Assembly (NCBI GenBank): GCA_035559535.1
Contig: DATMBG010000007.1
Location: 1-64,000, forward strand
Direction: 5' to 3'
Length of the DNA: 64,000 nucleotides
From: Candidatus Limnocylindrales bacterium
Lineage (GTDB): Bacteria > Moduliflexota > Moduliflexia > Moduliflexales > JAUQPW01
Shown here: in pieces, positions 1,794-35,012 of the stretch
Layout of the letters: each line of letters starts with the position of its first letter
Position numbering within the stretch: position 1 is the first letter of the stretch
The notes under the pieces: model-generated
The model's database searches: none
Seen by the model: only the letters and a program-made list of their open reading frames with translations
What the model was told of the DNA's origin: nothing
Made by a program: the position numbers and the translations under genes

Positions 1794-4700
1794 ATGAAGG
1801 GTCGATACCTCTTTTCTGCCTGTTTAGTTCTCTTATTAACCCTGATCTTGACCTCGCCATTAGGTATAACTGCACAATTTACTCGTTCAAATAGCCCTCC
1901 GGATAAACCTGGAGTCCGTTCTGAGCTTGCCGAAGGAGTGAAACTTGAACCCCCCCAAGAGCCCCAAACTCCAGTTACATCCCCCCCTGGTAAGGGGGAA
2001 AGGTTCGACCCTAAAAAATGGCCCATCGATGTGGGAGCTGTCGTGAATTCATCACCTGTTCTGGGAGATTTGGATGGAGATGGATGTTTGGAAATCATCA
2101 TCGGTTCTGATAACGGTAAGGTCTACGCCTGGAAAGCTGATGGGACTCCCTTACCTGGATGGCCGGTAAGTACAGGAGATTCGGTTCGATCTTCTCCGGC
2201 CTTGGCAGACCTGGACGGAGATGGTAAACTCGAGGTTATTGTAGGATCCTTCGATGGTAAGATATATGCCTGGAACTTCCGTGGAAGTTTGGTCCTGGGT
2301 TGGCCGGTCACCACGGGAAGTGTGATTTACTCTTCTCCGGCTATCGGGGATGTAGATGGAGACCAGTCCCCTGAGGTGGTGGTAGGATCCTTTGACAATA
2401 AGGTCTATGTCTGGAATGCAGATGGATCTCTGGCAAGGGGTTGGCCACAATCCACCGGTCTCTTTGTTTATTCTTCCCCGGCTTTGGCGGATCTGGATGG
2501 AGATGGTAAACCCGAAATAATTATCGGATCGGATAATAACCAGGTTTTTATATGGAATGGAGAGGGGATTCCCTTAGCGGGATGGCCTCAGGTAACTGGA
2601 CATGTTGTCCCTACATCTCCGGCTGTGGGAGACATCGATGGGGATGGAGAGTTAGATATTATAGCAGGATCCTGGGATAAAGTTTACGCCTGGGATAGCC
2701 ATGGAAAATTGAAACCAGGCTGGCCTATTACAGTGGGAAGTTGGGTAACCTCCTCTCCGGCTTTGGCAGATCTGGATAATGACGGGCTTCCAGATATTAT
2801 TGTCGGTTCCAAAGATGGAAAGGTGTATGCCTGGAATGGAAAAGGAAAACTCATCGATGGCTGGCCGACCATTACAGACGGGGAAATTACCTCTTCTCCC
2901 GCTGTGGGAGACGTAGATGGAGATGGGCGATTGGAAGTTGTCATAGGCTCCAAGGATAACAAACTTTATATCTGGGATATGAATGGAAAATTGCTCCCAG
3001 GCTGGCCCAAAGCCACCGGAGGACCTATCACTTCCTCACCGGCTATTGGAGACCTTGATAAAGACGGCAACATCGAAGTTGTGGTAGGGTCCAGGGACCA
3101 TAAGGTTTATGTCTGGAGTATCCCAGGTTCCGGGCGCGTGGCCAGGTCCTCTCGACCTGACATCCCCTGGGCAGGTTTCCATCGAGATCCTCAACATACT
3201 GGTTTCTTAGGTCAAACCCTCCTTACCGGACAGGTAGCAAAAACCCTACGACCCTCTACGCCTGTCTCCGGTGCACAACCGACTCCAAACCTGACAAAAA
3301 GCCCGGAAGCCGAAAGATCCCAAGTCCCGGATACAGCCCTTCAATCTTCCCTTCAGAGAGGGCCTGAGGTTAAAAGGGAGGAGCCTGCAACACCACCGGT
3401 GGTCGCTAAACCGGTTATTGAAGATTTGACCATCTCGGACTTTACGGATACTACTGTGACTCTAACCTGGACGGCTCCCAGTGTAAAAGGAAATCCGGCT
3501 AAATTTTATGATATTCGATTCTCAGGGGAGCCGATAACCGAGGAAACCTGGGAGAAAGCCACCAAATATACCACCGATCTGCATCCCAGTTCTCCAGGCC
3601 AGCCAGAAACCTTTGTTCTCATTAACCTTCCTCCCCGGGAGAAACTTTACCTGGCCATCCGGGCCTCAGATGGAAAAGACAAAACCAAACTCTCCAACGT
3701 GGTGGAACTGGACCGTCTGGATACTATTCCTCCAGGTGCAATTAAAGATTTAGTCGTGGTCGAAAAGGGAGAGCAACTTGAACTTACCTGGACAGCTCCA
3801 GGAGATAATGGATATGAGGGAAGTGCCAATGCCTATGATATCAGATATGCGTCCCAACCTCTTAGCGAGTCTTCCTGGTCCAAAGCCGCAGAGATTATCG
3901 GAGAACCTAAACCGCTACCTGCCGGAACGAAACAGCAGTTCTTGATTCCAAAGCCTGCTACTACCGAAGTTCTTTATTTTGGAATCAAGACCATCGATGA
4001 AGCTCTAAATATCAGCCCCCTGTCTAATATTGCCACCTGGACTCCCCAGGATAAAATACCTCCAGCTAAGATCCAGGATCTAAGGGTCGAAAATATCACT
4101 CCGGAAGGAATTATTCTGACCTGGACGGCTCCCGGCGATGACGGTAATGTAGGGAGGGCTTTTCGGTATGATATTCGTTATTCAGAATCCCCCATTACCG
4201 ATGCAAACTGGTCTTCCATTAAAAACCTTATCATAGGTCCTATTCCGGAGGCGGCCGGGACTTTACAAAGATTTATAATCAAAGAACCCCTGGCCGATAA
4301 AATTTATTATTTTGCCATGAAGACGGTGGATAAGCGGGGCAATGAATCTCCTCTATCCAATATTCTTCAGGTGGACGTTCGGGACAAAATAGCACCGGCT
4401 CCCATAAAAGACCTGGTCGTGATGGAAGTCGGATCCGATTGGGCCCGATTGTCCTGGACGGCTACCGGTGACAATGGAACCGAGGGGACGGCGGCTGCTT
4501 ACTCTTTAAGATATGCAGAAGATCCTAAAATCCTGGAGGCCTGGGACCAGGCCCAGGAAGCAAAGGATTTACCGAAACCTTTGCCCTCGGGGTCAAAAGA
4601 GGAATTCAAACTCTCTGGATTAAAGAGTAACCTTCGTTATTACGTTGCTATAAAAGCTATTGATGGAGCAGGGAACTATTCGGCTATCTCCAATCTGGTC

Positions 4701-7700
4701 GAAGTAAAGACCTCAGATACGATTAATCCAGACCCCATAACCGATTTACGGGCTACCGGCAGTACAGAAGATAGTGTCACCTTGAGCTGGACCGCCACTG
4801 GAGATGATGGCCGAACAGGTAAAGCAGCTCGATACGACCTCCGTTATACGGTAAAGGAGAAGTTAACCAAAAACAACTGGGATCAGGCCAATAAACTAAC
4901 CGGACTGCCCCAACCTGCCGAATCCGGTAAACCGGAAATTTATATTGTAAGAAACCTTGCCCGGGATACTGTTTACTATTTCGCCATTGAGGCCATTGAT
5001 AAACAAGGGAATCGCTCCGGTTTATCCAATGTACTGGAAGTATCGACCTCGGATACAACTCCTCCGGCTGCCGTTACAGATCTGGCAGTACAGGGAAGTG
5101 GAGCCGATTGGGTTCGGGTAAGTTGGACCGCTACCGGAGATGATGGCACCGAAGGGCAGGCTTCGTTTTACTCTCTGCGATATGCCGAAAGCCTTCAAAC
5201 GGTTCAGGAATGGGATCGGGCAACCGAAATTCCCAATATGATCAAACCCGGAAAATCAGGAAGTAAAGAAGAGTTTACTATTTCAGGTCTTAAAAGCAAC
5301 ACGGTTTATCATCTTGCAATTAAAGTCGGGGATGATCGGGGGAATCTCTCCCGAATCTCGAATATTGTTCAAGCGCGAACAGCGGATACCATCAATCCGG
5401 CACCTATTGCAGATCTGAGGGTAACCAGCAGTACCGAGGACAGTATTACGTTGAGCTGGACGGCTACCGGAGATGATGGAAGGGTTGGGAGAGCCGCAGC
5501 TTATGATTTAAGATTTACCCAAAAAGAGAAATTAACGAAAGAAAATTGGCCGCTGGCCGAGAAGATAGAACATCTCCCCAAACCTGCGGAATCGGGTAGT
5601 ACCGAAACGTTTAGTATTACAGGTCTGGTTAAAGGGACTCCTTATTACTTTGCCATTGAAGCCATCGATGCCCAGGGAAATCGCTCCGGTTTGTCCAACG
5701 TGGTGGAGATCACAACGAAAGATGTTACCCCACCGGCGCCTATTAAAGATCTATCGGTTGTGAGAACAACGGGAGACTCTGTAGAACTAAGTTGGACCGC
5801 CACCGGAGATGATGGGACCGAAGGAGTGGCCACGGCCTATTCCTTAAAATATGCTCTGGATCGTAAAACCCTGGAGGAATGGAATCAAGCGACCGAGGCG
5901 TTTTCTATGATCAAACCTGCCAGGTCCGGTGAGAAAGAGAAATTCACCCTAACGGGACTTAAAAGCAATGTCGTTTATTATATCGGCCTAAAGGCCATTG
6001 ATGAAGCCGGAAACACTTCAGGACTTTCCAATATTGTTCAGGCCAAAACCCAGGATACTATCAGCCCGGATCCCATTGTAGATCTGCGGGTAGTTGCCAA
6101 TACAGAAAGTAGCATTACCCTGAGTTGGACGGCTACCGGAGATGACGGTAAAATTGGAAGAGCGGCCTCTTATGATTTAAGATTCACCGTCAAAAGTACC
6201 CCGAAGGATAAAAAGAAAAGAGAATCCGGAGAAGGTGTATTAACCAAAGACAACTGGACCCATGCCGTACCGGTTACGGGGCTACCCCAACCTGGAGAAG
6301 CAGGCAAAACAGAAACCTTTACGGTGACCGGATTATCTAAAAACAGCACCTACTACTTTGCCATTGAAGCTATTGATAAGCAGGGAAATCGCTCCGGATT
6401 ATCCAATGTCATAGAAGTCTCTACCTCCGATACTACTCCGCCTGCCACGGTACAAACCCTGGCGGTTATGGGGGCCGGTGCAGATTGGATACGACTAACC
6501 TGGATCGCTACCGGAGACGATGGGATGGAGGGAAGAGCGGCCTCTTATTCCTTACGCTATGCGGAAACGGCTGCAGCTATCAAAGAATGGGACCATGCCC
6601 CAGAAGTCCCAAATATGATTCGACCCGGTAATCCTGGAGATAGAGAGGAGTTCATTATAACCGGAGGTCTGAAGAGTAATACTACCTATTATATAGGATT
6701 AAAGGTACGGGATAGTCGAGGGAACACGTCTGGGCTCTCGAATATTGTTCAGGCGAAAACCAGTGATGCGCTTAGTCCGGCACCCATCACGGATTTAAGA
6801 GTGGTAGAGAGTACCGAAGACAGTGTCACACTAAGCTGGACGGCCACCGGAGATGATGGAAGGGTTGGTCAAGCCAGCGAATATGATCTTCGATATACCC
6901 TGGGTGAAAAGCTTTCCAGAAATCTGTGGCCGTTGGCACATAAAGTGGAAGGATTACCCAGGCCGTTAGAGGCTGGACGTAGTGAAACTTTTAAAGTTAC
7001 CGGGTTGAAAAGGCACACAACTTATTATTTTGGCCTCGAAGCCGTTGATAATCAGGGAAATCGATCCGGAATCTCCAATATTCTCGAAGTAAGCACCCGA
7101 GATCTAACCCCCCCGGCGGCTGTGACCGATCTGGCCATAGTCAGTACCGGACCTAATTGGGTGAAGGTAAGCTGGACGGCCACCGGAGATGACGGCACTG
7201 AAGGGCAGGCGGCCAAATATTCCCTAAGATATTTGGGGAGTACAGGAACAGAGTTGAAACCGGATCCTAACTGGTGGGATCAGGCTGTGGAGGTCTCAGA
7301 CGTTCCTAAACCTGCTCAACCCGGGACTAAGGAAGAGTTTACGATTACAGGACTGAACAGTAATACCACTTATTTTATCGGATTAAAGATCTTTGATGGT
7401 CAAAACAATGTTTCGCCCCTCTCCAATATTCTCCGCACCCGAACTGCAGACACTATTAAACCGGCTCTCATTACAGATCTGGCTCCTGTAGAAGTTGGCG
7501 AAACCCTTGTCACTCTAAAATGGACGGCTACAGGGGATGACGGTAAAGTAGGTCGGGCCGAACGTTATGATTTAAGATATATGGTCGTAGGTCCCGGGCG
7601 TGGATCTTCTCTAACGCCTAAAACCTGGCAGACGGCCACCGAAGTCCCTAACTTACCCCAGCCTTCTGAATCTGGAACTGTTGAAGTAGTAACAGTAGCC

Positions 7701-10700
7701 GGTCTTTCCAGAGATACCAAATATAATTTTGCCATTGAAGCCATCGATGGAGCGGGAAATAGATCCGGACTATCCAATATCATCGAGGTAGTTACCCTGG
7801 ATACCACTCCCCCGGCTTCTGTCACGGACCTGAAAGCCTTAGAGACCGGACCCGATTGGGTTCGATTAAGCTGGACGGCTACCGGAGATGATGGGATTGA
7901 AGGAACCGCTTCACGTTATTCCTTACGATATGCTACTGACTTAAAGACCCTTGAAAATTGGGAAAAAGCTACGGAAGCCGTCGCACCGAATCGTATGCCT
8001 CTCCCCAAGAGTGCAGGGACTTCCGAAGAATTTCTCCTCAAAGGACTCAAGAGTAATACCACTTATTATATCGCTCTGAGGGTCTTGGATAATCGGCAAA
8101 ATATCTCTGGGCTTTCAAATATTGTAGAAGTACGTACCGCAGATGCTTTGAGCCCTGGAGTGATTGAGGATTTACAGGTAGTAGAAAGTACCGAGGATAG
8201 TATAACCCTAAGCTGGACAGCCACCGGAGACGATGGTCGGGTCGGACAGGCGAACGAATATGATCTACGGTATACCAGTGGAGAGAAACTCACCAAAACG
8301 AGCTGGAAACTAGCCCATCGGGTCACGGAGGTACCGAAACCCCAGCCATCGGGAAGTATGGAAACGTATAAGGTAACCGGACTAAGCCGAGATACGGTTT
8401 ATTACTTTGGTATTGAAGCCATAGATAAGCAGGGGAATCGATCCGGGATTTCCAATATTGTCGAGATCCGCACCCAGGATCTGACTCCTCCGGCCGGTGT
8501 GGTAGATCTTGCTGTCATAGGAGCCGGAGCCGATTGGGTAAAGATAAGTTGGACGGCTACCGGGGATGATGGGACCGAAGGGCAGGCCACAGCCTATTCT
8601 CTCAGATATGCTGGCGATTTGAAAACTCTGGAGGAATGGGATCATGCTCTGGAAGTACCTGGAGTTCCCAAGCCCGCCCCCTCCGGGACTAAAGAAGTGT
8701 TTACCATCACCGGGCTTAAAAATAATTCAACCTATTATATCGGCTTGAAGGTCATGGACAATCGGCAGAATTTCTCTCCCCTTTCGAATATCTTAACGGT
8801 TCAAACCGCAGATACCATCAACCCAGCACCTATTACCGATCTTCGAGTTGCCGAGACTGCAGCAGATAGTATCACCCTAAGCTGGACGGCCACCGGAGAT
8901 GACGATCGGGTTGGTCGGGCCGCTACCTATGATTTTCGCTATTCCACAGTTCCCTTGACCGAAAAGACCTGGGCATCTGCCCAGAAGGTCCCCAATCCTC
9001 CTACTCCCGCAGAGGCCGGAACTATAGAGAAATTAACGGTTCGAGGTCTTGTTCCCAATCAAATCTACTACTTTGGCGTACTGGCCATCGATAAAAACAG
9101 TAATATCTCTCCCTTATCCAACATCGTCGAAGCAAGCACCGCTGATACTCTGGCCCCAAAAGCGATTACAGATCTGTCCATTGAAGAGACCACCGAGAAT
9201 TCCGTCTCGCTGGTCTGGACTTCGGTTGGAGACGATCCAATCCATAAGACGGCTGCTAGGTATGACCTGCGTTACAGTACAAATCCCATTACCGAAGGAA
9301 ATTGGTCCCAGGCAACCAGAGTTTCTCCAGTCATCAAACCCTCGGAGTCAGGAACCAAAGAAAGACAGGTCGTTACGAACCTTCGTAAGGGTACTTCTTA
9401 TTACTTTGCCATCAAATCTATCGATAACGCCTCCAACGTGTCTCCCCTTTCCAATACAGTTTGGGCTTATACCTTGCCAGACCGAATTACAGATCTTGCC
9501 GTGGGAAAGGTAGATAAGGACAAGGTAACCTTAACCTGGACAACTCCAGGGGGAGATCTAACGGGTATTACAGGTACCGAAGGACGTTTCTATGAAATTC
9601 GTTATGCAAAACAAGAAATAACCGAAGATAACTGGTCCCAGGCAACCCTCTACCCGGCTCGAATTAAAGCAAAAGAACCGGGCTCTCAAGAGCAGGTGGT
9701 TTTGACCAACCTACCCCCCGACGAAAAGCTTTTCTTTGCTGTCAAGGTCTTCAAAGTGGGAGGTCCGACGGTACCGGGTACAGCAGGAGTCCCGGGCACC
9801 GGAATCTCTGCCTCACAAATCTCCAATAAACTGGAGGTGAACCGATTAGATATAATTCCTCCGGCAGCCATTACAGATCTGGTAGTTCGCCCCATAACCT
9901 GTCAAAGCCCTGAAGGCCAGAATCTGGGGTCTCGAGTTCCGGATTCTGGACCTGAAAAATCTGCAGAATCCAAAAAACAATCCAAGGGTAAGCAAGGCCT
10001 ACTCTCCTTTACAAAGCGTAAATCCAATAATTTGAGATCTGAATCTCCGGGCTCTGAACTTCGAACTTTAGATTGCTTAGAACTCTCCTGGACGGCTACG
10101 GGTGATAACGGTCATGAAGGGACTGCCACAGCTTATGATATCCGTTACGCCCGTACCCCTTTAGATGAAACCAATTGGGTCAGGGCAGAGCGATATCTCC
10201 ATCCGCCCACTCCCCAGGCCGCCGGAACCCCCCAAACTTTTATCGTTCCACTCCCTTCCCAAGAAGAAACCTTCTTCTTTGCTATAAAAGTCTTAGACGA
10301 GGCGCTGAATATCTCCCCCATCTCCAACGTGGTATCCTGGACCCCTCCTGATCACATTCCACCTGCGGCTATTACAGATCTTAAAGTTACAAGTCTGGAT
10401 AGTCATACCATCACCCTTTCTTGGACTGCACCTGGAAACAATGAAAACAGAGGAAAAGCCGCCTTTTACGATATACGATACTGTGGGGGGGATGTGCGTT
10501 GTAAGCTTCCTGAAGGATGGTCCAAAGCTCAAACGGTCGCAGGAGAACCCCTTCCAGAAGAAGCCGGTACCCTTCAGTCCATGACCTTAACAAATTTAAT
10601 TTCGGATACCACTTATTACATTGCCATGACGGCTACAGATGGAGCCGGAAACACTTCTCCCCTGTCTAATATCGTTGAAGCGACTACACCGGATGTGGTA

Positions 10701-13700
10701 GCTCCGTCTCCTGTAAAAGATCTTTCTGTGGTAGGGGTAGGACTGGATCGGCTTAAACTTGCGTGGACGGCCACAGGGGATGATGGGGAGGTAGGACAGG
10801 CCTCCCAGTATTCGCTTAAGTATGCTACAGATCGGGCCACTTTGGAGAGGTGGGATTCGGCCACGGAAGTTCCTAAAGTTCCGGCACCTAAAAGCGCCGG
10901 TAAAAGGGAAGAATTTCTCCTGACAGGTTTAACCCATAATACCACTTACTATATCGGTTTAAAGGTCATTGACAATCGCGGAAATTATTCCGGACTTTCC
11001 AATATCCTGGAGGCGCGAACGGGGGATGCCATAGGTCCTGAAATGATCACAGACTTGAAAGTCATTGGAAAGACCAGTAGTCCTGGCACATCTGAAACAC
11101 CCGATACACGGGAAGAGCGTACTGCCTCGACAGATGGCCTTACCCTCTCCTGGACGGCTCCTGGAGATGACGGTAAGGTAGGCCAGGCCGATAAATACGA
11201 AATTCGCTACTCGATAGAACCTCTCAATCCCGCTAACTGGAATAAAGCAACAAAAGTCAAGGAAGTCCCCAAGCCGTCTGTAGCAGGAACCGTTGAAAAC
11301 CTGGTTATCCGGGGGTTGGCTTTTAACAAAAAGTATTACTTCGGCATCATAGCCGTAGATAAAAGTGGGAATCCCTCTCCCCTCTCCAACATTGCAGAAG
11401 GTTTTACAAGGGACACCATTCCGCCTCAACCGGTAAGGGACCTCCAGGTGGAAAGCACCACCAAAGATACCATCACTCTGACCTGGACTGCCCCAAAGGA
11501 TGACGCTTTGCACGATCAAGCCTTTGCCTACGATTTGCGCTATAGCATACAACCCTTTGGGGAAGGATCCAATGCAGGTTGGGAAACTGCCGAGAGAGTT
11601 CAGGGTATTCCACAACCGGGTAACCCCGGAGCTTTAGAACGATTTACCATTGGACCTGCTCAAGGAATTACTCTCCAGGAAAATACACCTTATTACTTTG
11701 CGATTAAAGTGATAGATCAAGCCGGTAACGTTTCACCCCTATCCAATATTGTTTCTACCCAGACCAAAGATGTGACGCCACCTGTGGCTATTGGAGATTT
11801 AGTCGCTGCGTTTCCAACCCGAAATACGATTACCCTTATTTGGACGGCGCCTCAAGACCCCAATACCGGGAAGGTAGCATCTTACGAGATTCGCTACTGG
11901 GAAGTAAAAGACACCGATTTAGAAGGAACGGGTACCTGGGGGCATGAGAGGATAGAAACGCGACGACAGGGCGGGCAAGGTACACCCGGAGCGGAGGTTC
12001 AGAAATCTGGAAGCGGGGAAACGCCGGAGCTGATGACCACAGAAGATGTACCTCCTTCCAAGATAGAACCGCCCGGAAAGAAAACAACCGAAAAACCTGA
12101 GGCTAAACCCGAGGTGTCCTCTGGTAAGAAATCCCAAAAGACTTCAAAGGAAAAGGGTAAGATAGAGAGGCAAGGGCCGGAAGGTACAGGACAGGAAGGA
12201 TCTGTACGAAAACCATCTGTTGCAGCGTCGAAACGCTCGATGCGGTCTGTTCTCCCCAAACCCGAAGAGATTCCTGAGGCTAAACCCAAGATAAAGCCGA
12301 CCCCCTCAATATCGGGACAGGTTCCAGGCTCGGGGGAAACTACTCTCCAGCAGGGAGGTATAGAGGTACACGGGCAAAAGAGCCAAGAAACGGTTCCCAC
12401 AACTTCGCGTTCTCAGGTCACTACGTCCCGGATACCTTTTCCCTGGGAGAAAGCTGTTCGGATACCTACTCCTCCTCAACCGTCCAATCCTGGATCTGTA
12501 GAAAAGTATGTGGTGGCAAACCTCAAGGAAGGTCAAACCTATGCCTTTGCCATCCGGTCCACAGATCCAAGTGGTAATATTTCTGAGCTTTCCAACGTGG
12601 TGGTTGAAATGACCCTAGGTCCGTCCCTTCCTGTAGGTCGTCCGTCGATAAGTGCAATCAGCCCAGAAAAACCGATCCATCAGGGACAATGGAGCACTTA
12701 TCAGGGAAAAGGAACGATCCTTTCAGAGGATAATATGGGTATTCAGGTAACCTCCACCGATAGGGTTTTTGGGATTAAGCGTCCCCTGGTGGTTTCTTAT
12801 CCGGCCGGAAATAATACGGTAACACTCCCCCAGGATCAATTATCTTTAAAGATCAAGAGTCGAGAACCTTTTATTGTCTATATAAAGGTTATGTCAACCC
12901 AAAAGGACGAATACTACCTGGCCTATCAAGCCTCTACATATAATGGTTTGTGGGCTGTGAGTCAGGAGCAGAGATTGAGTAGTGATAAGGAAGTAGCTGT
13001 TGCAGCCGATAATGAACAAGGAACTCCTCGATTAAACCCGGGACAGACAATGGACCATGGACCCCAAATAACCGATAACAGACAGCAGACTATGCCTGAC
13101 AGGCAACCTGCCTTTCATCGGGTGGATAATTTTGTGTTCTTCCGACTGGGTTCGGAGTTTTTGGATGGAAACTGGCATAATCTGGAGAGAAATCTGAGAA
13201 AGGATCTCTTTGAAGCTACCGGGCAGAACTATCTGGCAACTAAATGGTTCGCAGTGAGAGGAACCCAGTTTTCCCTTGGAGATGTAAATCTGGCCGGTAA
13301 GCTGGTTAAAACTATTTCTGTAAGCGATGGAGGAACCGCTGCGGCAAGTTGGGGGATTCACTATGGAGAGGGCGATTTAAGTATCCAACCAGATAGTGAA
13401 TTAAACAAACCGGTTCTTCAGGCCAAATCCCGCACAGGAAGAGAATTAGTTATTGCTTATCCGGTAAAGCCGGGCATTCAAATTACGGAAAAGATTTTAT
13501 CCGCCCAGATAAAAGCCCGAGAAGAGTTCAAGTTCTTTGTAAAGGTTGTGACCTCTACGGGAGAGACTTATTATCTAACCTATATTCCCAGAGAAGGACC
13601 CCTAACCGTGTCCGGCAATTATATCTACGTCCCCATTGGAACTTCTTATCGAGACGGTACCTGGCACAAACTGGAACAGAATTTAGAAGCGGATCTGAAA

Positions 13701-13835
13701 AAAGCCCTTGAATCCTCGGGTCAACCCGGTACAAATTATAGCTATACCAATTGGATTTCCATCGGTGGTAGAGAATTCAGCCTGAATGATATACAGTTCA
13801 GTACCGAGGAAATGACCGAGAAGATCCTAAAGTAA
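1794..13835 (+). CDS. Giant exported protein: FG-GAP propeller, about 25 FN3-like domains, duplicated C-terminal domain
   Basis: About 4013 residues. A Sec signal peptide occupies residues 1-30. Eight FG-GAP/VCBS repeats (residues about 83-442) each carry an SSPAxxDxDGDG calcium-loop motif and a GKVYAW strand, consistent with one beta-propeller. After a Pro/Ser-rich linker come about 25 fibronectin III-like domains (about 540-3606) with a recurring LSWTATGDDG signature and YYFAIxAID strand. Domains 4-17 alternate between two types. Domain 20 carries a charged insertion (about 2700-2760), and domain 25 is split by about 190 residues of Pro/Lys/Glu-rich linker. The C-terminus holds two diverged copies (about 3647-3839 and 3860-4013) of a domain with FFVKVxT and GTWHxLExNLxxDL motifs that I do not recognise. 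There is no sortase, PEP-CTERM or obvious membrane anchor. I infer a secreted or surface adhesin or scaffold. The ATG at 1794 is chosen because it opens the signal peptide. Confidence 0.85.
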   Translation: MKGRYLFSACLVLLLTLILTSPLGITAQFTRSNSPPDKPGVRSELAEGVKLEPPQEPQTPVTSPPGKGERFDPKKWPIDVGAVVNSSPVLGDLDGDGCLEIIIGSDNGKVYAWKADGTPLPGWPVSTGDSVRSSPALADLDGDGKLEVIVGSFDGKIYAWNFRGSLVLGWPVTTGSVIYSSPAIGDVDGDQSPEVVVGSFDNKVYVWNADGSLARGWPQSTGLFVYSSPALADLDGDGKPEIIIGSDNNQVFIWNGEGIPLAGWPQVTGHVVPTSPAVGDIDGDGELDIIAGSWDKVYAWDSHGKLKPGWPITVGSWVTSSPALADLDNDGLPDIIVGSKDGKVYAWNGKGKLIDGWPTITDGEITSSPAVGDVDGDGRLEVVIGSKDNKLYIWDMNGKLLPGWPKATGGPITSSPAIGDLDKDGNIEVVVGSRDHKVYVWSIPGSGRVARSSRPDIPWAGFHRDPQHTGFLGQTLLTGQVAKTLRPSTPVSGAQPTPNLTKSPEAERSQVPDTALQSSLQRGPEVKREEPATPPVVAKPVIEDLTISDFTDTTVTLTWTAPSVKGNPAKFYDIRFSGEPITEETWEKATKYTTDLHPSSPGQPETFVLINLPPREKLYLAIRASDGKDKTKLSNVVELDRLDTIPPGAIKDLVVVEKGEQLELTWTAPGDNGYEGSANAYDIRYASQPLSESSWSKAAEIIGEPKPLPAGTKQQFLIPKPATTEVLYFGIKTIDEALNISPLSNIATWTPQDKIPPAKIQDLRVENITPEGIILTWTAPGDDGNVGRAFRYDIRYSESPITDANWSSIKNLIIGPIPEAAGTLQRFIIKEPLADKIYYFAMKTVDKRGNESPLSNILQVDVRDKIAPAPIKDLVVMEVGSDWARLSWTATGDNGTEGTAAAYSLRYAEDPKILEAWDQAQEAKDLPKPLPSGSKEEFKLSGLKSNLRYYVAIKAIDGAGNYSAISNLVEVKTSDTINPDPITDLRATGSTEDSVTLSWTATGDDGRTGKAARYDLRYTVKEKLTKNNWDQANKLTGLPQPAESGKPEIYIVRNLARDTVYYFAIEAIDKQGNRSGLSNVLEVSTSDTTPPAAVTDLAVQGSGADWVRVSWTATGDDGTEGQASFYSLRYAESLQTVQEWDRATEIPNMIKPGKSGSKEEFTISGLKSNTVYHLAIKVGDDRGNLSRISNIVQARTADTINPAPIADLRVTSSTEDSITLSWTATGDDGRVGRAAAYDLRFTQKEKLTKENWPLAEKIEHLPKPAESGSTETFSITGLVKGTPYYFAIEAIDAQGNRSGLSNVVEITTKDVTPPAPIKDLSVVRTTGDSVELSWTATGDDGTEGVATAYSLKYALDRKTLEEWNQATEAFSMIKPARSGEKEKFTLTGLKSNVVYYIGLKAIDEAGNTSGLSNIVQAKTQDTISPDPIVDLRVVANTESSITLSWTATGDDGKIGRAASYDLRFTVKSTPKDKKKRESGEGVLTKDNWTHAVPVTGLPQPGEAGKTETFTVTGLSKNSTYYFAIEAIDKQGNRSGLSNVIEVSTSDTTPPATVQTLAVMGAGADWIRLTWIATGDDGMEGRAASYSLRYAETAAAIKEWDHAPEVPNMIRPGNPGDREEFIITGGLKSNTTYYIGLKVRDSRGNTSGLSNIVQAKTSDALSPAPITDLRVVESTEDSVTLSWTATGDDGRVGQASEYDLRYTLGEKLSRNLWPLAHKVEGLPRPLEAGRSETFKVTGLKRHTTYYFGLEAVDNQGNRSGISNILEVSTRDLTPPAAVTDLAIVSTGPNWVKVSWTATGDDGTEGQAAKYSLRYLGSTGTELKPDPNWWDQAVEVSDVPKPAQPGTKEEFTITGLNSNTTYFIGLKIFDGQNNVSPLSNILRTRTADTIKPALITDLAPVEVGETLVTLKWTATGDDGKVGRAERYDLRYMVVGPGRGSSLTPKTWQTATEVPNLPQPSESGTVEVVTVAGLSRDTKYNFAIEAIDGAGNRSGLSNIIEVVTLDTTPPASVTDLKALETGPDWVRLSWTATGDDGIEGTASRYSLRYATDLKTLENWEKATEAVAPNRMPLPKSAGTSEEFLLKGLKSNTTYYIALRVLDNRQNISGLSNIVEVRTADALSPGVIEDLQVVESTEDSITLSWTATGDDGRVGQANEYDLRYTSGEKLTKTSWKLAHRVTEVPKPQPSGSMETYKVTGLSRDTVYYFGIEAIDKQGNRSGISNIVEIRTQDLTPPAGVVDLAVIGAGADWVKISWTATGDDGTEGQATAYSLRYAGDLKTLEEWDHALEVPGVPKPAPSGTKEVFTITGLKNNSTYYIGLKVMDNRQNFSPLSNILTVQTADTINPAPITDLRVAETAADSITLSWTATGDDDRVGRAATYDFRYSTVPLTEKTWASAQKVPNPPTPAEAGTIEKLTVRGLVPNQIYYFGVLAIDKNSNISPLSNIVEASTADTLAPKAITDLSIEETTENSVSLVWTSVGDDPIHKTAARYDLRYSTNPITEGNWSQATRVSPVIKPSESGTKERQVVTNLRKGTSYYFAIKSIDNASNVSPLSNTVWAYTLPDRITDLAVGKVDKDKVTLTWTTPGGDLTGITGTEGRFYEIRYAKQEITEDNWSQATLYPARIKAKEPGSQEQVVLTNLPPDEKLFFAVKVFKVGGPTVPGTAGVPGTGISASQISNKLEVNRLDIIPPAAITDLVVRPITCQSPEGQNLGSRVPDSGPEKSAESKKQSKGKQGLLSFTKRKSNNLRSESPGSELRTLDCLELSWTATGDNGHEGTATAYDIRYARTPLDETNWVRAERYLHPPTPQAAGTPQTFIVPLPSQEETFFFAIKVLDEALNISPISNVVSWTPPDHIPPAAITDLKVTSLDSHTITLSWTAPGNNENRGKAAFYDIRYCGGDVRCKLPEGWSKAQTVAGEPLPEEAGTLQSMTLTNLISDTTYYIAMTATDGAGNTSPLSNIVEATTPDVVAPSPVKDLSVVGVGLDRLKLAWTATGDDGEVGQASQYSLKYATDRATLERWDSATEVPKVPAPKSAGKREEFLLTGLTHNTTYYIGLKVIDNRGNYSGLSNILEARTGDAIGPEMITDLKVIGKTSSPGTSETPDTREERTASTDGLTLSWTAPGDDGKVGQADKYEIRYSIEPLNPANWNKATKVKEVPKPSVAGTVENLVIRGLAFNKKYYFGIIAVDKSGNPSPLSNIAEGFTRDTIPPQPVRDLQVESTTKDTITLTWTAPKDDALHDQAFAYDLRYSIQPFGEGSNAGWETAERVQGIPQPGNPGALERFTIGPAQGITLQENTPYYFAIKVIDQAGNVSPLSNIVSTQTKDVTPPVAIGDLVAAFPTRNTITLIWTAPQDPNTGKVASYEIRYWEVKDTDLEGTGTWGHERIETRRQGGQGTPGAEVQKSGSGETPELMTTEDVPPSKIEPPGKKTTEKPEAKPEVSSGKKSQKTSKEKGKIERQGPEGTGQEGSVRKPSVAASKRSMRSVLPKPEEIPEAKPKIKPTPSISGQVPGSGETTLQQGGIEVHGQKSQETVPTTSRSQVTTSRIPFPWEKAVRIPTPPQPSNPGSVEKYVVANLKEGQTYAFAIRSTDPSGNISELSNVVVEMTLGPSLPVGRPSISAISPEKPIHQGQWSTYQGKGTILSEDNMGIQVTSTDRVFGIKRPLVVSYPAGNNTVTLPQDQLSLKIKSREPFIVYIKVMSTQKDEYYLAYQASTYNGLWAVSQEQRLSSDKEVAVAADNEQGTPRLNPGQTMDHGPQITDNRQQTMPDRQPAFHRVDNFVFFRLGSEFLDGNWHNLERNLRKDLFEATGQNYLATKWFAVRGTQFSLGDVNLAGKLVKTISVSDGGTAAASWGIHYGEGDLSIQPDSELNKPVLQAKSRTGRELVIAYPVKPGIQITEKILSAQIKAREEFKFFVKVVTSTGETYYLTYIPREGPLTVSGNYIYVPIGTSYRDGTWHKLEQNLEADLKKALESSGQPGTNYSYTNWISIGGREFSLNDIQFSTEEMTEKILK
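4393..9154 (+). repeat. Seven tandem copies of a ~670-bp two-domain FN3 unit
   Basis: Inside the giant gene, FN3 domains alternate between a type ending YSLRYAE (with an ADWV strand) and a type ending YDLRYT (with an STEDSxTLSW strand). Pair starts fall near 4393, 5068, 5737, 6446, 7115, 7814 and 8492, and the next domain begins near 9155. The spacing is 663-709 bp. The pattern indicates amplification of a domain pair rather than of single domains. Confidence 0.85.
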
Positions 13836-21369: not shown

Positions 21370-21383
21370 TTAGAAAGAAGTAT

Positions 21384-21460
21384 GGAAGTATGGGGGTATG
21401 GGGGTATGGGGGTATGGGGGTATGGGAGGTTCTTCATATCCTTGTACCCCCATACTTCCC
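21384..21460. repeat. TATGGGGG minisatellite with hairpin and G-quadruplex potential
   Basis: Four GGGGG runs (21392, 21400, 21408, 21416) and one GGG run are spaced by TAT on the plus strand. GGAAGTATGGGGGTA (21384-21398) is perfectly complementary to TACCCCCATACTTCC near 21446-21460. It fills the gap between the htrA stop and the lgt start. Confidence 0.8.
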
Positions 21461-23601: not shown

Positions 23602-24837
23602 ATGGCCAGAGTCATGATTGTCGATGATAGTAAAACCGTACGGCATTATCTGTCTCAGATGATCGAGCTGGCAGATCATACAGCGATTCCGGTAGAATCT
23701 GCAGAGAAAGCTATCGAACTCCTGGAAATGCGTGCAAAGGAAGAACCTGTTCTCCTTCCCGATCTCATTTTTATGGATGTGATCATGACACCTGGCATGA
23801 GCGGTATTGAAGCAACCAATAAAATAAAGTCGCATTCCAACCCGGCCATTGCCGATATTCCCATTGTTTTCCTGACCGGGATTGGAGAACAGGACATCGC
23901 CAGCGAAGCTTTAGACGCCGGAGCTCTGGATTATATTGTAAAACCCTCCAGTGCAGAGTCCCTCCCTATCTTTTTAGATAACCTGCGTAAAAAGCTGGAT
24001 AGACTCCTTAATATCAGCACCCGTAGTTTAAAGAAGGGAACTGGTCTTATTGCAGATTTATCCAATGAGTACTTACCCTCTCTCTTACAGATGCTCCATC
24101 TGGAAGATGCTTCTGGTTACATTACCCTGACCAATCCTAAACGCAGACAGAGTGCCTCCATGCATATGCGTTATGGAAACATCGAGTATATTGCCCTGGT
24201 CGATACGTCTAAAGGGGTTAAGGTAAGGCTGGAAGGTGAGGAGGCTTTCCATATGCTGGTAAACTGGACAGAGGGGATTTTTTCCTTTGGGAGGGCCGAT
24301 CCCGAAAGAATGCCAAAAGGAAAACCTATGAACCTGGTTGTTCTGTTATGCGCCATAGATACCCGCGAAATCCAGGGTGCCACAAAATCTCTCGGCTCGT
24401 CTTCAACTCCCGTTATAGAACCCTACCCGAAATTTAAAGCCAGACTGGAAGAAGAACTCAGCCAGTTGTTGGAAAATTCCACGGCCTTCCAAATTTTCTA
24501 TATTCGGATCAAAGATAAGGCTTCTATACTCCTGCGGGGTCAGAAAAAAAACAAATCTCCCAAAACTCAGCCATTCAATCCCTTTAAAAGCGAAAAAGAG
24601 CTCCTCACCTTTGTAGAATCCAAAGCCCAAAATTTTGTCAGTAAGCTTAAAGATGTTTTCTTCTTCCTCCAGGAAGGCTATCTTCTGTTGCGTAAATGGG
24701 GTAAATCGGATTATATCGTAATTCTGGATCCCGATTCGGATCAATCTCATCAGGGTCGTCTCCTGGCAGCTCAAGCAGCAACCATTATACGAAAAGCCGC
24801 GGTGGAGCGACGAAATCAACGATTGGCAACTACATAG
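23602..24837 (+). CDS. Response regulator with DUF4388 (PatA-like) output domain
   Basis: The 411-residue protein has an N-terminal receiver (residues 1-130; acidic pocket at D8/D9, phosphoacceptor D59 in LIFMDVIM, T92 in FLTG, K114 in YIVKPS). A DUF4388 domain follows (about 150-255: LPSLLQMLHLEDASGYITLT, then an FHMLVNWTEGIFSF segment). The C-terminal 130 residues may form a roadblock-like alpha/beta domain; that is inference. Receiver-DUF4388 proteins occur in chemosensory systems tied to twitching or multicellular behaviour. An AGGAGG lies before the ATG. Confidence 0.82.
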   Translation: MARVMIVDDSKTVRHYLSQMIELADHTAIPVESAEKAIELLEMRAKEEPVLLPDLIFMDVIMTPGMSGIEATNKIKSHSNPAIADIPIVFLTGIGEQDIASEALDAGALDYIVKPSSAESLPIFLDNLRKKLDRLLNISTRSLKKGTGLIADLSNEYLPSLLQMLHLEDASGYITLTNPKRRQSASMHMRYGNIEYIALVDTSKGVKVRLEGEEAFHMLVNWTEGIFSFGRADPERMPKGKPMNLVVLLCAIDTREIQGATKSLGSSSTPVIEPYPKFKARLEEELSQLLENSTAFQIFYIRIKDKASILLRGQKKNKSPKTQPFNPFKSEKELLTFVESKAQNFVSKLKDVFFFLQEGYLLLRKWGKSDYIVILDPDSDQSHQGRLLAAQAATIIRKAAVERRNQRLATT

Positions 24838-25368: not shown

Positions 25369-27537
25369 ATGGACGAGCTTATAGAAGTTTTTATAGAAGA
25401 ATCTACAGAGATTTTAGAATCCCTGGATCAAAATCTGTTGAAACTGGAACAACAGATTAACCGGGAAAATCCTGACCCGGAGCTGGTCAATCAAATTTTT
25501 CGTTCCCTCCATACCCTTAAGGGAAACTCCGGTCTCGCCAGTGCCGATAAAATTAAGGAACTGACCCACAAAATGGAGTTCCTTTTAGACCTCCTAAGGA
25601 AGAATAAAATTCGACTAACCGATACCTTCGTAGACTTGTTGTTTAAAGGGGTGGATATGGTAAAAATCCTGTTGAAAGAGGTTTCGACAGGAGTTGATCA
25701 GAAGGTAAATCTGTCTGATCTTCTGACCCAAATAGACCGTCTGATGGAAGGGGAGGTAACTCCAACAGAGAAGAAATCTCCCCTCGATCTTTATCATATT
25801 CCCAAAGAAATAAGCCGGGTCTTAACGGAATACGAAGAAGCGCGTCTCTTAGAGAACATCCAGAAGGGTATACCTATTTATGAACTACTGTTAAATCTTA
25901 AAATAACAGATCTGGAACGGACCATGAGCCAAATCCTTGAAAAGATAAATGGATGGGGAGAGGTCATTGCCAAACTTCCTATTTCAAAATCTTCGAGTAC
26001 CTTTGATCTTCAGCTTAAAGTAATATTCGCCTGTAAATGGAACCTTTCAGAGGTTATGGAGAATTTAAGGAATGTTACAGAACTTCAGTCTACCGATTAC
26101 ATCGTTCAATCGCTTTTACCCGAAGATAAAACTGGAGCGATAAGCCAATCCCCCGTCTCGGCACCCTCTATACCCGTCCAGGAACCCAGATCGATACCTC
26201 TGGAAACTTCTGTATCTATCGAGACTGCCCATGCTAAAGCTGTTGAGGAGCAGAGGAAGCCATTACCTGAAAAGGTGGAAAAACAAATTCCCCTTCAGGA
26301 GCAACCCAAGTCAGTAGTGGGAGGAGGAGAAAAAGAGTCTTTAGAGGCATTGGGAAATACGGTACGGGTCGACATTAAAAAGCTGGATAATCTTATGAAT
26401 ATCGTGGGAGAGTTGGTTTTAGCTAAAGCGCGCTATCAGCAAATAGAAGCACAAATTGAACCCGATCCTAAATTACGTGCATTATGGGATGAATTCAAAA
26501 AGAATAACAAATTTACTTCTAAAAAATTGGAAGATTTGCGGGAGGGGATCTTGCAGGTTCGTATGGTTCCTATTGGTCAGTTGTTTAGTCGATTTCCTCG
26601 AATTGTACGGGACTTAACCCGAACAGGGGATAAAAAAGTCAGACTCATTCTCAAAGGAGAAGATACAGAACTGGATAAGGCTGTTATCGATGAAATGGGA
26701 GAAGTTCTGGTTCATATGATCCGAAATGCTGTGGATCACGGGATTGAACCTATTCCCCTCCGCCTGGAACGGAATAAACCCATCGAAGGAACCCTTATTC
26801 TCAACGCTTATCAAGAAGGAAATCATATCGTTATCGAGGTCGAAGATGATGGGGGCGGTATCGATGTAGATAAACTGACCCAAAGGGCTATAGAACGAGG
26901 GCTTATCGAAAAAGGAGCCCATCTCAGTAAAAGTGAAATTCTAAGTGTTATGATGAGTACAGGGATCTCTACGGCTCAAACCATTACAGATATATCGGGG
27001 CGAGGTGTTGGAATGGATGCGGTTAAAAGTACCCTTTCTAAACTCAAGGGAACCATTGATTTTGAAACCACGCCGGGTCTCGGAACCAAGTTTATCATCA
27101 AACTTCCCCTGACCCTGGCCATCATCCAGGTACTGTTGGTGAAGGTGGCTGATCAGACTTATGCCATCCCCTTAACTTCCGTACTCGAAAGCTTTAAGAT
27201 GACCCGCGATAAAATAGAGTTGATCGATAAACAGGAAGTTACCCAACTTCGGGATATGATCCTCCCCCTCATGCGTCTGACCGACGCCTTTAACCTGCCT
27301 AATTCCCAGAGGAATAAAAACAGTTTTTATGTGGTCGTTGTGGGCCTGGCAGAAAGAAAAATCGGGGTCATTGTAGATGAACTCTTAGATCAACAAGAAA
27401 TTGTCATTAAACCCCTGGGACGGTACCTGGCAGATACCCCGGGGTTTGCAGGTGCTACAACACTAGGAGATGGTCGGGTCGTTCTCATTTTGGATGTTGC
27501 CGGATTGATCGAATCTTTAAATGCAAGATTTCGATAG
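25369..27537 (+). CDS. cheA: Chemotaxis histidine kinase CheA
   Basis: The 722-residue kinase has an Hpt domain with H48 in FRSLHTLKGNSG, then about 250 residues of P2-like or linker sequence. A P3 dimerisation helix pair follows (about 333-420, KLDNLMNIVGELVLAKARY), then the HATPase domain with an N-box at about 445 (HMIRNAVDHGIE), a G1 box VEDDGGGID and a G2 box GRGVGMDA (about 543). A C-terminal CheW-like domain starts at about 582. It has a single Hpt domain and no fused receiver; the receivers are separate genes upstream. The partner CheW follows 26 bp later. No Shine-Dalgarno is evident before the ATG. Confidence 0.94.
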   Translation: MDELIEVFIEESTEILESLDQNLLKLEQQINRENPDPELVNQIFRSLHTLKGNSGLASADKIKELTHKMEFLLDLLRKNKIRLTDTFVDLLFKGVDMVKILLKEVSTGVDQKVNLSDLLTQIDRLMEGEVTPTEKKSPLDLYHIPKEISRVLTEYEEARLLENIQKGIPIYELLLNLKITDLERTMSQILEKINGWGEVIAKLPISKSSSTFDLQLKVIFACKWNLSEVMENLRNVTELQSTDYIVQSLLPEDKTGAISQSPVSAPSIPVQEPRSIPLETSVSIETAHAKAVEEQRKPLPEKVEKQIPLQEQPKSVVGGGEKESLEALGNTVRVDIKKLDNLMNIVGELVLAKARYQQIEAQIEPDPKLRALWDEFKKNNKFTSKKLEDLREGILQVRMVPIGQLFSRFPRIVRDLTRTGDKKVRLILKGEDTELDKAVIDEMGEVLVHMIRNAVDHGIEPIPLRLERNKPIEGTLILNAYQEGNHIVIEVEDDGGGIDVDKLTQRAIERGLIEKGAHLSKSEILSVMMSTGISTAQTITDISGRGVGMDAVKSTLSKLKGTIDFETTPGLGTKFIIKLPLTLAIIQVLLVKVADQTYAIPLTSVLESFKMTRDKIELIDKQEVTQLRDMILPLMRLTDAFNLPNSQRNKNSFYVVVVGLAERKIGVIVDELLDQQEIVIKPLGRYLADTPGFAGATTLGDGRVVLILDVAGLIESLNARFR

Positions 27538-27563
27538 AAACTTAAGCTAAAAATTTAAATACC

Positions 27564-28070
27564 ATGGATAACCTTACTGTTCCCGCATTAAATACAAAAG
27601 AATTACCCTCAGGTGAGGATGAACAGTTACAGCAAGTTTGTTTTAAGCTGGCCGATAGCGAATACGGGATCGATATTTTCCATGTCCGCGAGATTATTAA
27701 ACCTGTGGAAAATATGACGCCGGTCCCCCAGGCTCCCTTTTTTGTAGAGGGAGTCATCGATCTGAGGGGAGACATTATCCCTATTTTAGATCTCAAAAAA
27801 CGGTTTGATCTTGGCAAGACCGAGATGGGAAAATCTACCCGAATTATTGTGGTGAAGCTGGCCGGAACATCAGGTGCAAACACTCTTATCGTAGGCTTTT
27901 TAGTCGATCAGGTAACCGAAGTCCTACGGGTTAAAAAAAGTGAAATCCAGCCGGCTCCCGGTAAGGTGATGGGAATCGACTCCGAGTATATCTGGGGCGT
28001 GGGAAAACGGGCCGGTCGCCTGATCATGCTCCTGGACGTAGAGCGGATGCTTCTGGCCGATACGAAGTAA
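27564..28070 (+). CDS. cheW: CheW-type coupling protein
   Basis: The 168-residue protein is a CheW-like SH3-pair domain. It shows CFKLADSEYGIDIFHVREII (residues about 26-45), VPQAPFFVEGVIDLRGDIIPILDL (about 54-77) and VGFLVDQVTEVLRV (about 109-122). CheW couples CheA to a chemoreceptor, yet no receptor gene is in this operon, so the receptor must be encoded elsewhere. It is the last gene of the operon; a palindromic minisatellite begins at its stop codon. Confidence 0.93.
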   Translation: MDNLTVPALNTKELPSGEDEQLQQVCFKLADSEYGIDIFHVREIIKPVENMTPVPQAPFFVEGVIDLRGDIIPILDLKKRFDLGKTEMGKSTRIIVVKLAGTSGANTLIVGFLVDQVTEVLRVKKSEIQPAPGKVMGIDSEYIWGVGKRAGRLIMLLDVERMLLADTK

Positions 28071-28074
28071 AATC

Positions 28075-28236
28075 GTGGGAGTATGGGAGGTATGGGGGTA
28101 TGGAAGTATGGAAGTGTGGGAGGGTGGAAGTATAAAGGAATATACTTCCCTACCCTTATACCCTCTACTCCTCCATACTCCCATACTCCCATACCTCCCA
28201 TACTCCCATACCCCCATACTTCCCACACGCCCAAAC
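28075..28236. repeat. GTATGGGAG palindromic minisatellite of ~160 bp
   Basis: The left half repeats GGGAGTATGGGAGGTATGGG-type units. The right half repeats the complementary CCCATACTCCCATAC. The whole could fold into one long imperfect hairpin. It fills the gap between cheW and the glycosyltransferase. One frame (from 28075) happens to be open through it, which falsely extends the glycosyltransferase by 54 residues. Confidence 0.85.
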
Positions 28237-29385
28237 TTGAATTACAAAATTGCCCATATCATTACTAAACTGGAGCTGGGGGGGGCTCAACAAAATACCC
28301 TCTATACCCTTGCCCACCTGAACCGTGCTCGGTTTCAACCCATCCTTATAACCGGCCGGGAAGGGGTCTTAATAGAAGATGCCAATCGGCTCCAGGGGGT
28401 TACCCGCTATTATCTTCCCTCGCTGATCCGGGAAGTAAATCCGGTACAGGATTTTAAAGCTTTATTAGAGATCCGGCGGATCCTGATCAAAGAAAAACCG
28501 GTTATTGTTCATACCCATAGTTCCAAAGCCGGAATTGTAGGAAGATGGGCTGCAAAGCTGGCCGGAGTTCCCTTTATTATTCACTCCATCCATGGCTTCG
28601 GGTTCCATGATCATCAAAATTTCCTTCAACAAAAATTTTTTATCTTCCTGGAACGGATCACTTCTCCGATTACAACCCGGTTTATCGCGGTTTCCCGGGC
28701 CAATATAGAAAAGGGAATCGGGTTAAATTTATTTCATTCCTCTCAAGTCTCCTTAATCCGAAGTGGGATCGAAATCGCTTCCTTTCGAGATGTTGTGTTA
28801 GACCGCCCGGTCAAATTAAAAGAACTCGGTCTTCCTCCCGATGTTCCTCTGGTGGGAATGATCGCCTGCTTTAAACCCCAAAAAGCTCCTTTAGATTTCA
28901 TCGAGATGGCTTATTTGGTTCATCAACAAATACCTGAAGCTCACTTTCTGATGGTTGGTGATGGTGAACTTCGCCCTCAGATTGAGGCCCGCATTCAGGC
29001 TCTTCATTTGGCTCAAGTTGTTCACCTGGTTGGCTGGCGGAGAGATGTCCCGGAAATTTTACACCTGCTGAATATCCTGGTTCTAACCTCTTTATGGGAA
29101 GGACTCCCCCGGGTATTTCCTCAAGCCATGGCCGCCGGTGTTCCCATTGTGGCAACTTGTGTAGACGGAGCTCCGGAGGCCGTTAGAGAGGGTCTGAACG
29201 GTTATCTCCTTCCACCAAGGGATATCAAAGGATTGGCCGAAAAAGTTATTTATCTCCTCCGACATCCTGACCTTGCCAGAAAGATGGGCCAGGAAGGAAC
29301 CCGCCTGGTAGATGAATTTGATATCGATGATATGGTTCGACAGCAAGAAGAACTTTATCTGACACTTCTAAATTCTTTTCGTTGA
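28237..29385 (+). CDS. Family 4 glycosyltransferase
   Basis: The 382-residue protein has a GT-B fold: an opening YKIAHIITKLELGGAQQ, an HTHSSKAGIVGRWAAKLAG segment, and a C-terminal domain starting with VGMIACFKPQK. The donor-binding region shows EGLPRVFPQAMAAGVPIVA and GAPEAV. GT4 enzymes transfer sugars from activated donors to lipid, glycan or small-molecule acceptors; the acceptor is unknown. The real N-terminus begins at the TTG at 28237, directly against the repeat, and no Shine-Dalgarno is visible. Confidence 0.88.
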   Translation: MNYKIAHIITKLELGGAQQNTLYTLAHLNRARFQPILITGREGVLIEDANRLQGVTRYYLPSLIREVNPVQDFKALLEIRRILIKEKPVIVHTHSSKAGIVGRWAAKLAGVPFIIHSIHGFGFHDHQNFLQQKFFIFLERITSPITTRFIAVSRANIEKGIGLNLFHSSQVSLIRSGIEIASFRDVVLDRPVKLKELGLPPDVPLVGMIACFKPQKAPLDFIEMAYLVHQQIPEAHFLMVGDGELRPQIEARIQALHLAQVVHLVGWRRDVPEILHLLNILVLTSLWEGLPRVFPQAMAAGVPIVATCVDGAPEAVREGLNGYLLPPRDIKGLAEKVIYLLRHPDLARKMGQEGTRLVDEFDIDDMVRQQEELYLTLLNSFR

Positions 29386-34898: not shown

Positions 34899-34916
34899 GG
34901 AACGGAGGTTTTGGGA

Positions 34917-35012
34917 CGTGGAGACATTGAGACGCGGAGACTAGGAGACACGGAGACGCGGGGAAATGTCTCAATGTCTCCGCGTCTCCGTGTCCCAAAG
35001 TTCCCGTGTCCC
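34917..35012. repeat. GAGACGCGG palindromic minisatellite
   Basis: The left half repeats GAGACGCGGAGAC and GGAGACACGGAGACGCGG-type units; the right half repeats the complement (GTCTCCGCGTCTCCGTGTCCC). It could fold into a hairpin of about 95 nt. It separates the polyferredoxin gene from the aldo/keto reductase gene. Confidence 0.8.

Follow-up and report, generated by a model that had tools for sequence, protein, structure and literature searches.

Parts of the giant protein analyzed here recur in several described groups of proteins. Its FN3 segment is shared with CLCA (TIGR00868), the C-terminal FN3 segment of which was the best NCBIfam match of four single repeats (E down to 1.3e-10). Membership in the CLCA family was rejected, because only the FN3 part of the model is matched and the score of 546.7 bits lies below the cut-off of 900.85. 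The protein also differs from CLCA in the lack of the CLCA_N zincin metalloprotease and VWA domains (Pfam scan) and in the presence of 25 FN3 domains in tandem.

A second resemblance is to PF21174 (Glce_b_sandwich), the beta-sandwich of D-glucuronyl C5-epimerase (Glce), a carbohydrate-acting enzyme. One domain of the protein scores above the cut-off of this family, but the epimerase catalytic domain is missing and, in a further difference from Glce as well as from CFA20, the domain is duplicated and forms the end of an exported protein with FN3 domains. Finally, the giant bacterial surface proteins of the class of Reva and Tummler (PMC11573180) are likewise very long, repetitive and built of extracellular-type domains, although the protein studied here (4013 aa) falls below the 5000-aa limit of that class (PMC11573180).

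In a partial search of the literature, no paper on an architecture composed of a propeller, FN3 domains and a C-terminal domain pair was found. Within 385 sampled genomes, this head-stalk-foot order is confined to the phylum of the source genome. All the parts are of known kinds, and the novelty lies in the order of the domains and in the expansion of the FN3 array; the protein is probably a cell-surface or matrix adhesin of a generally familiar type and not a new kind of system.

Giant gene and signal peptide

The window (the whole analyzed DNA stretch of 64,000 nucleotides) contains a single frame of 4013 aa without internal stops, which extends on the plus strand from ATG 1794 to a stop codon at 13835; all parts of the gene described below lie on the same strand. 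The frame is also open 5′ of this ATG, as far as TTG 1710. ATG 1794 was preferred as the start codon since it is followed by a signal peptide and since the orthologue from a genome of another family (G002, see below) begins likewise (MKRTVLL...). The predicted Sec signal peptide, MKGRYLFSACLVLLLTLILTSPLGITA (position 1794–1874; cleavage site before QF assigned by inspection), has no lipobox. It is the sole strongly hydrophobic 19-residue segment of the protein, with no further transmembrane-like segment, and the N-terminus of the G002 orthologue is equivalent, with AQF at the cleavage site. The mature protein has a computed mass of approximately 431 kDa and a pI of 5.1.

The signal peptide is followed by eight FG-GAP blades, 25 FN3 domains and two C-terminal domains. 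The preliminary description of this DNA had proposed an exported protein of about 4013 residues that joins an FG-GAP propeller, an FN3-like array and a duplicated C-terminal domain in one polypeptide; the open frame, the signal peptide and the order of the parts agree with it, and the signal peptide argues against retention of the protein in the cytoplasm.

Eight-bladed propeller

The N-terminal region (position 2022–3179) is a predicted eight-bladed beta-propeller of the FG-GAP (integrin-alpha-like) type, which matches both PF13517 (1.6e-48) and PF01839 (9.8e-34) above their cut-offs. The eight repeats noticed originally were recovered as D-x-D repeats at residues 92, 139, 186, 233, 280, 326, 373 and 420, with a spacing of 46–47 residues, and a motif count revealed the full calcium-type loop DxDx[DN]Gxx[DE] in seven of the eight blades. 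By analogy with integrin-type repeats, this suggests that the propeller loops bind calcium. The best solved relative identified in a PDB search is the designed propeller v31Bagel8 (E=2.5e-47).

The propeller alone is ordinary, since FG-GAP proteins are common in the source genome (124 repeat matches across many frames). At L091 and L092 of this genome (G000:C8:6000-34000), several very long frames of 1,844 to 3,178 aa lie in a cluster and carry, near their ends, FG-GAP-type repeats of a different kind.

FN3 array and its inserts

The central part of the protein (position 3390–12611) is an array of FN3 domains of about 111 residues each (PF00041, E=2.4e-151). Determination of the domain boundaries gave a count of exactly 25, as against the earlier estimate of about 25 FN3-like domains. 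An AlphaFold2 model of FN3 domains 15–16, for which other domain pairs of the same protein served as the alignment, showed the FN3 strand pattern with a pLDDT of 95, and a Foldseek search with this model retrieved tandem FN3 domains of LAR, PTP-delta and titin, with E=1.1e-11 for one FN3 tandem. Structure prediction, proposed earlier as a check, thus confirmed at the level of the model that these are true members of the FN3 family (PF00041) and not domains of some other fold.

The GDDG motif, described previously as an insert-like loop present in nearly all copies, is located between strands B and C, i.e. in the B-C loop, of the FN3 15–16 model. The statement on its frequency was somewhat overstated: GD[DN] occurs at this site in 20 of the 25 copies, but the exact GDDG in only 15. 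Nor is the loop a lineage-specific insert. Since the four single domains tested match the FN3 segment of CLCA best, it is an ordinary B-C loop that marks an FN3 subtype and is found beyond this protein; the same subtype also gives matches to the FN3 domains in the model for CbhB, a secreted exoglucanase.

Judged from the sequence, the real inserts of the array are low-complexity loops at other places. They comprise an insert in the A-B loop of FN3 20 (position 9900–10067; dN/dS of 0.34 in comparison with G001, versus 0.06 for FN3), a short one in the A-B loop of FN3 23 (position 11073–11126; dN/dS 0.54) and an insert of approximately 176 residues in FN3 25, between WEVK and FPWEK (position 11910–12437; dN/dS 0.28). 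This last insert is the largest in the protein, and sequence comparison revealed only a short loop at the corresponding place in FN3 13 of the G002 orthologue. By eye, some low-complexity inserts of the protein (for example at 9930–10065 and 13048–13090) resemble decayed in-frame 7-base repeats, but they were not prominent in a periodicity scan.

Conservation and selection

The sample of the phylum comprised four species, including G001, the only other member of the genus, and G002, a representative of a different family of the same order. In G001 (a different species; MAG record JAUQPW010000048.1) the giant gene is present at identical length and with the same order of parts: all 4013 residues align with zero gaps and 94% identity. 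An assembly artefact was rejected on the basis of this second assembly with identical length and order. As all 4013 codons have been kept without an indel at a dS of 0.30 and an overall dN/dS of 0.094, the gene is not a chance frame; it is real and conserved.

The dN/dS values for the same gene pair vary along the protein. They are low in the propeller (0.049), most of the FN3 array (0.062) and the second C-terminal copy (0.090), and therefore indicate strong purifying selection on the structured domains. Linkers and FN3 loop inserts have values of 0.27–0.54, and the insert of the first C-terminal copy lies below these (0.16). The inserts are thus mostly relaxed, as expected if they form exposed disordered loops.

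The G002 orthologue, a frame of 2387 codons, has the same order of signal peptide, eight-blade propeller (64% identical to that of the window protein), FN3 array and two C-terminal domains. It differs in that its array contains 13 FN3 domains, as opposed to 25, and in its gene neighbors.

Growth of the stalk

A maximum-likelihood tree was constructed for 38 FN3 domains, 25 of the window protein (G000) and 13 of the G002 orthologue. G000 domains 1, 4, 19, 21 and 25 have G002 domains 1, 3, 8, 10 and 13, respectively, as their partners; support is strong for 21/10 and 25/13 and weaker for 1/1, 4/3 and 19/8. One strongly supported group contains G000 domains 2 and 20 together with G002 domains 2 and 9. 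The domains of FN3 5–16 (position 4710–8804) are of two alternating types, A and B, and make up six two-domain units with spacings of about 669–708 bp. The A-type domains among them cluster with one another, and the B-type domains are placed in one group with domains 4 and 22 of G000 and 3 and 5 of G002. These groupings suggest that both ends of the array are orthologous between the two lineages, and hence old, and that the middle appears to have expanded in the window lineage by copying of the two-domain A/B unit.

Every FN3 domain of the window protein is closest to the G001 domain at the same position (88–99%, versus at most 72% to any paralogue), so that the array has been neither shuffled nor homogenized since the split of these two species. 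The array serves as a clean example of the growth of a giant surface protein, with fixed ends and a stalk extended by two-domain copies and then frozen.

C-terminal domain pair

The protein ends with two copies of a predicted beta-sandwich domain, which are about 30% identical to each other. The C-terminal domain had been described as duplicated and unknown; the duplication holds, but an HMM search, the check suggested for it, placed copy 2 (position 13347–13802) in PF21174, with 42.6 bits against a gathering cut-off of 27 in a Pfam scan of the whole protein. Copy 1 (position 12687–13292), which contains a low-complexity insert, was assigned to the same family through its likeness to copy 2; the profile that it matches at 7.5e-51 was built with copy 1 itself, so that the independent support is this likeness of about 30%.

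A 13-member profile of the C-terminal domain matched CFAP20 (E 0.0005) and Glce B (E 0.0007) in the PDB. In Pfam, the similarity to CFA20 (PF05018) is a resemblance only, with 17.0 bits (E 0.0049) against a cut-off of 24. CFAP20 is reported to be a jelly roll with a fold like that of carbohydrate-binding modules (PMC6994238). An AlphaFold prediction of the C-terminal domain from a four-row alignment (both copies of two closely related species) reached a pLDDT of 36 and was left out of the fold searches.

The C-terminal domain was found in seven of the 385 sampled genomes, and a scan of one genome collection yielded the sister MAG JAUQPW010000048.1 as the sole match. It occurs in five of nine genomes of another small phylum (that of G267), at up to 16 places in each; Glce-like beta-sandwiches in exported multidomain proteins are found there at loci L064, L106, L107 and L108. 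Further long exported proteins carry relatives of the domain, in many cases at the C-terminus or close to it, and FN3, Ig, carboxypeptidase-regulatory, MopE and RHS domains are its companions there. The domain looks like a mobile extracellular module and probably binds glycan.

A much bolder view, which we regard as rather unlikely, is that the domain represents an unrecognized bacterial extracellular jelly-roll family joining the Glce beta-sandwich and CFA20, which would hint at a derivation of CFAP20 from bacterial glycan-binding modules. For this bacterial family of extracellular modules, which is sparsely annotated, glycan binding would be an identity open to test, and a connection with the ciliary protein CFAP20 is possible.

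Proposed function and export

We consider, with moderate confidence, that the giant protein is an exported, long-stalked, glycan-linked adhesin or matrix-cohesion protein. After Sec export past the inner membrane, this acidic head-stalk-foot protein of about 430 kDa would most likely reside at the cell surface or within the extracellular matrix. Its propeller, at the N-terminus, would act as a calcium-stabilized interaction head. An FN3 domain is about 3.5–4 nm long, and the 25 domains would form a stalk of approximately 90–100 nm when extended. The C-terminal pair would bind glycan and fix the protein either to a polysaccharide outside the cell or to the envelope or capsule of the cell itself, in adhesion or matrix cohesion.

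A spacer role for the stalk is suggested by the G002 orthologue, which keeps head, stalk and foot while the stalk length varies. A glycan-binding foot is suggested by the Glce match, the weak CFAP20 match and the carbohydrate-binding-module-like fold of CFAP20 (PMC6994238). The extracellular adhesin reading is further supported by the recurrence of the C-terminal domain in other exported multi-beta-domain proteins, by the signal peptide with no further transmembrane-like segment, by the identities of the domains and by the strong purifying selection on propeller and FN3 domains, with relaxation in the loops. It is weakened by the lack of a known anchor. A scan of the 4013-aa sequence detected no LPXTG motif, no RTX repeats (GGxGxD) and no lipobox. 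A sortase-anchored or RTX/T1SS adhesin was therefore rejected, the protein having an N-terminal signal peptide instead, and so was a lipoprotein. Cargo of a T9SS was rejected as well, since the sole TIGR04183 match in the source genome is marginal and lies in another gene. Secretins are encoded in all four genomes of the phylum, and export by a type II-like route is therefore possible.

The missing anchor would suit a released polysaccharide-binding scaffold, the C-terminal pair of which is bound to an external polymer while its propeller and FN3 arms bring enzymes or partners together there. The match of the FN3 subtype to CbhB and the naming of PF21174 after a domain of a carbohydrate-acting enzyme point in the same direction, but the Pfam scan identified no catalytic or dockerin-like domain in the giant protein and no carbohydrate-degradation genes occur beside it among the neighbors scanned, which leaves this alternative doubtful. 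A structural tether that stays in the periplasm or spans the envelope without reaching the outside would be consistent with a signal peptide without a known surface-sorting tail, but is improbable, as an extended length of about 100 nm exceeds the width of the periplasm and the domain types of the protein are typical of extracellular proteins.

Gene neighborhood

Upstream of the giant gene, on the plus strand, is a gene for a DUF4159 protein (position 848–1702; PF13709, 1e-48), which is kept at the same place in G001 and was not seen beside the G002 orthologue. The DUF4159 protein is a possible partner of the giant protein, but it has no clear link to adhesion, which weakens the adhesin reading. 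The genes downstream of the giant gene are histidyl-tRNA-synthetase-like and DciA-like.

On one strand, the G002 orthologue is flanked by a hybrid histidine kinase gene and a PilB/GspE ATPase gene, and beyond the ATPase lie genes for another kinase and an MglA-like small GTPase. In another phylum, an RHS-repeat protein with the same C-terminal domain (L038, G057:C9:119000-131000) is encoded directly 3′ of secretin, PilN-like and prepilin peptidase genes. Together with the secretins of all four phylum genomes, these arrangements would fit a protein that is co-regulated with the pilus motor and serves type IV pili or surface motility as an accessory or adhesin. We consider this very unlikely for the giant protein: there are only two such cases, maybe coincidental, and such neighbors were absent both from the scanned genes of the window and from the immediate surroundings of the G001 gene. 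The G002 neighborhood is a lead and not evidence concerning the window gene.

CheA-/CheW-type chemotaxis genes are present in the window at 25369–28070, with a response regulator gene (position 23602–24837) upstream of them. Short degenerate tandem arrays with 7- and 8-base units are found between genes and at gene starts (1705–1734, 1769–1788, 21380–21426, 28075–28237 and 34911–34961). By inspection, the first approximately 140 nucleotides of the window are the 5′ end of a minus-strand 16S rRNA gene; such a contig start is typical of an assembly break at rRNA.
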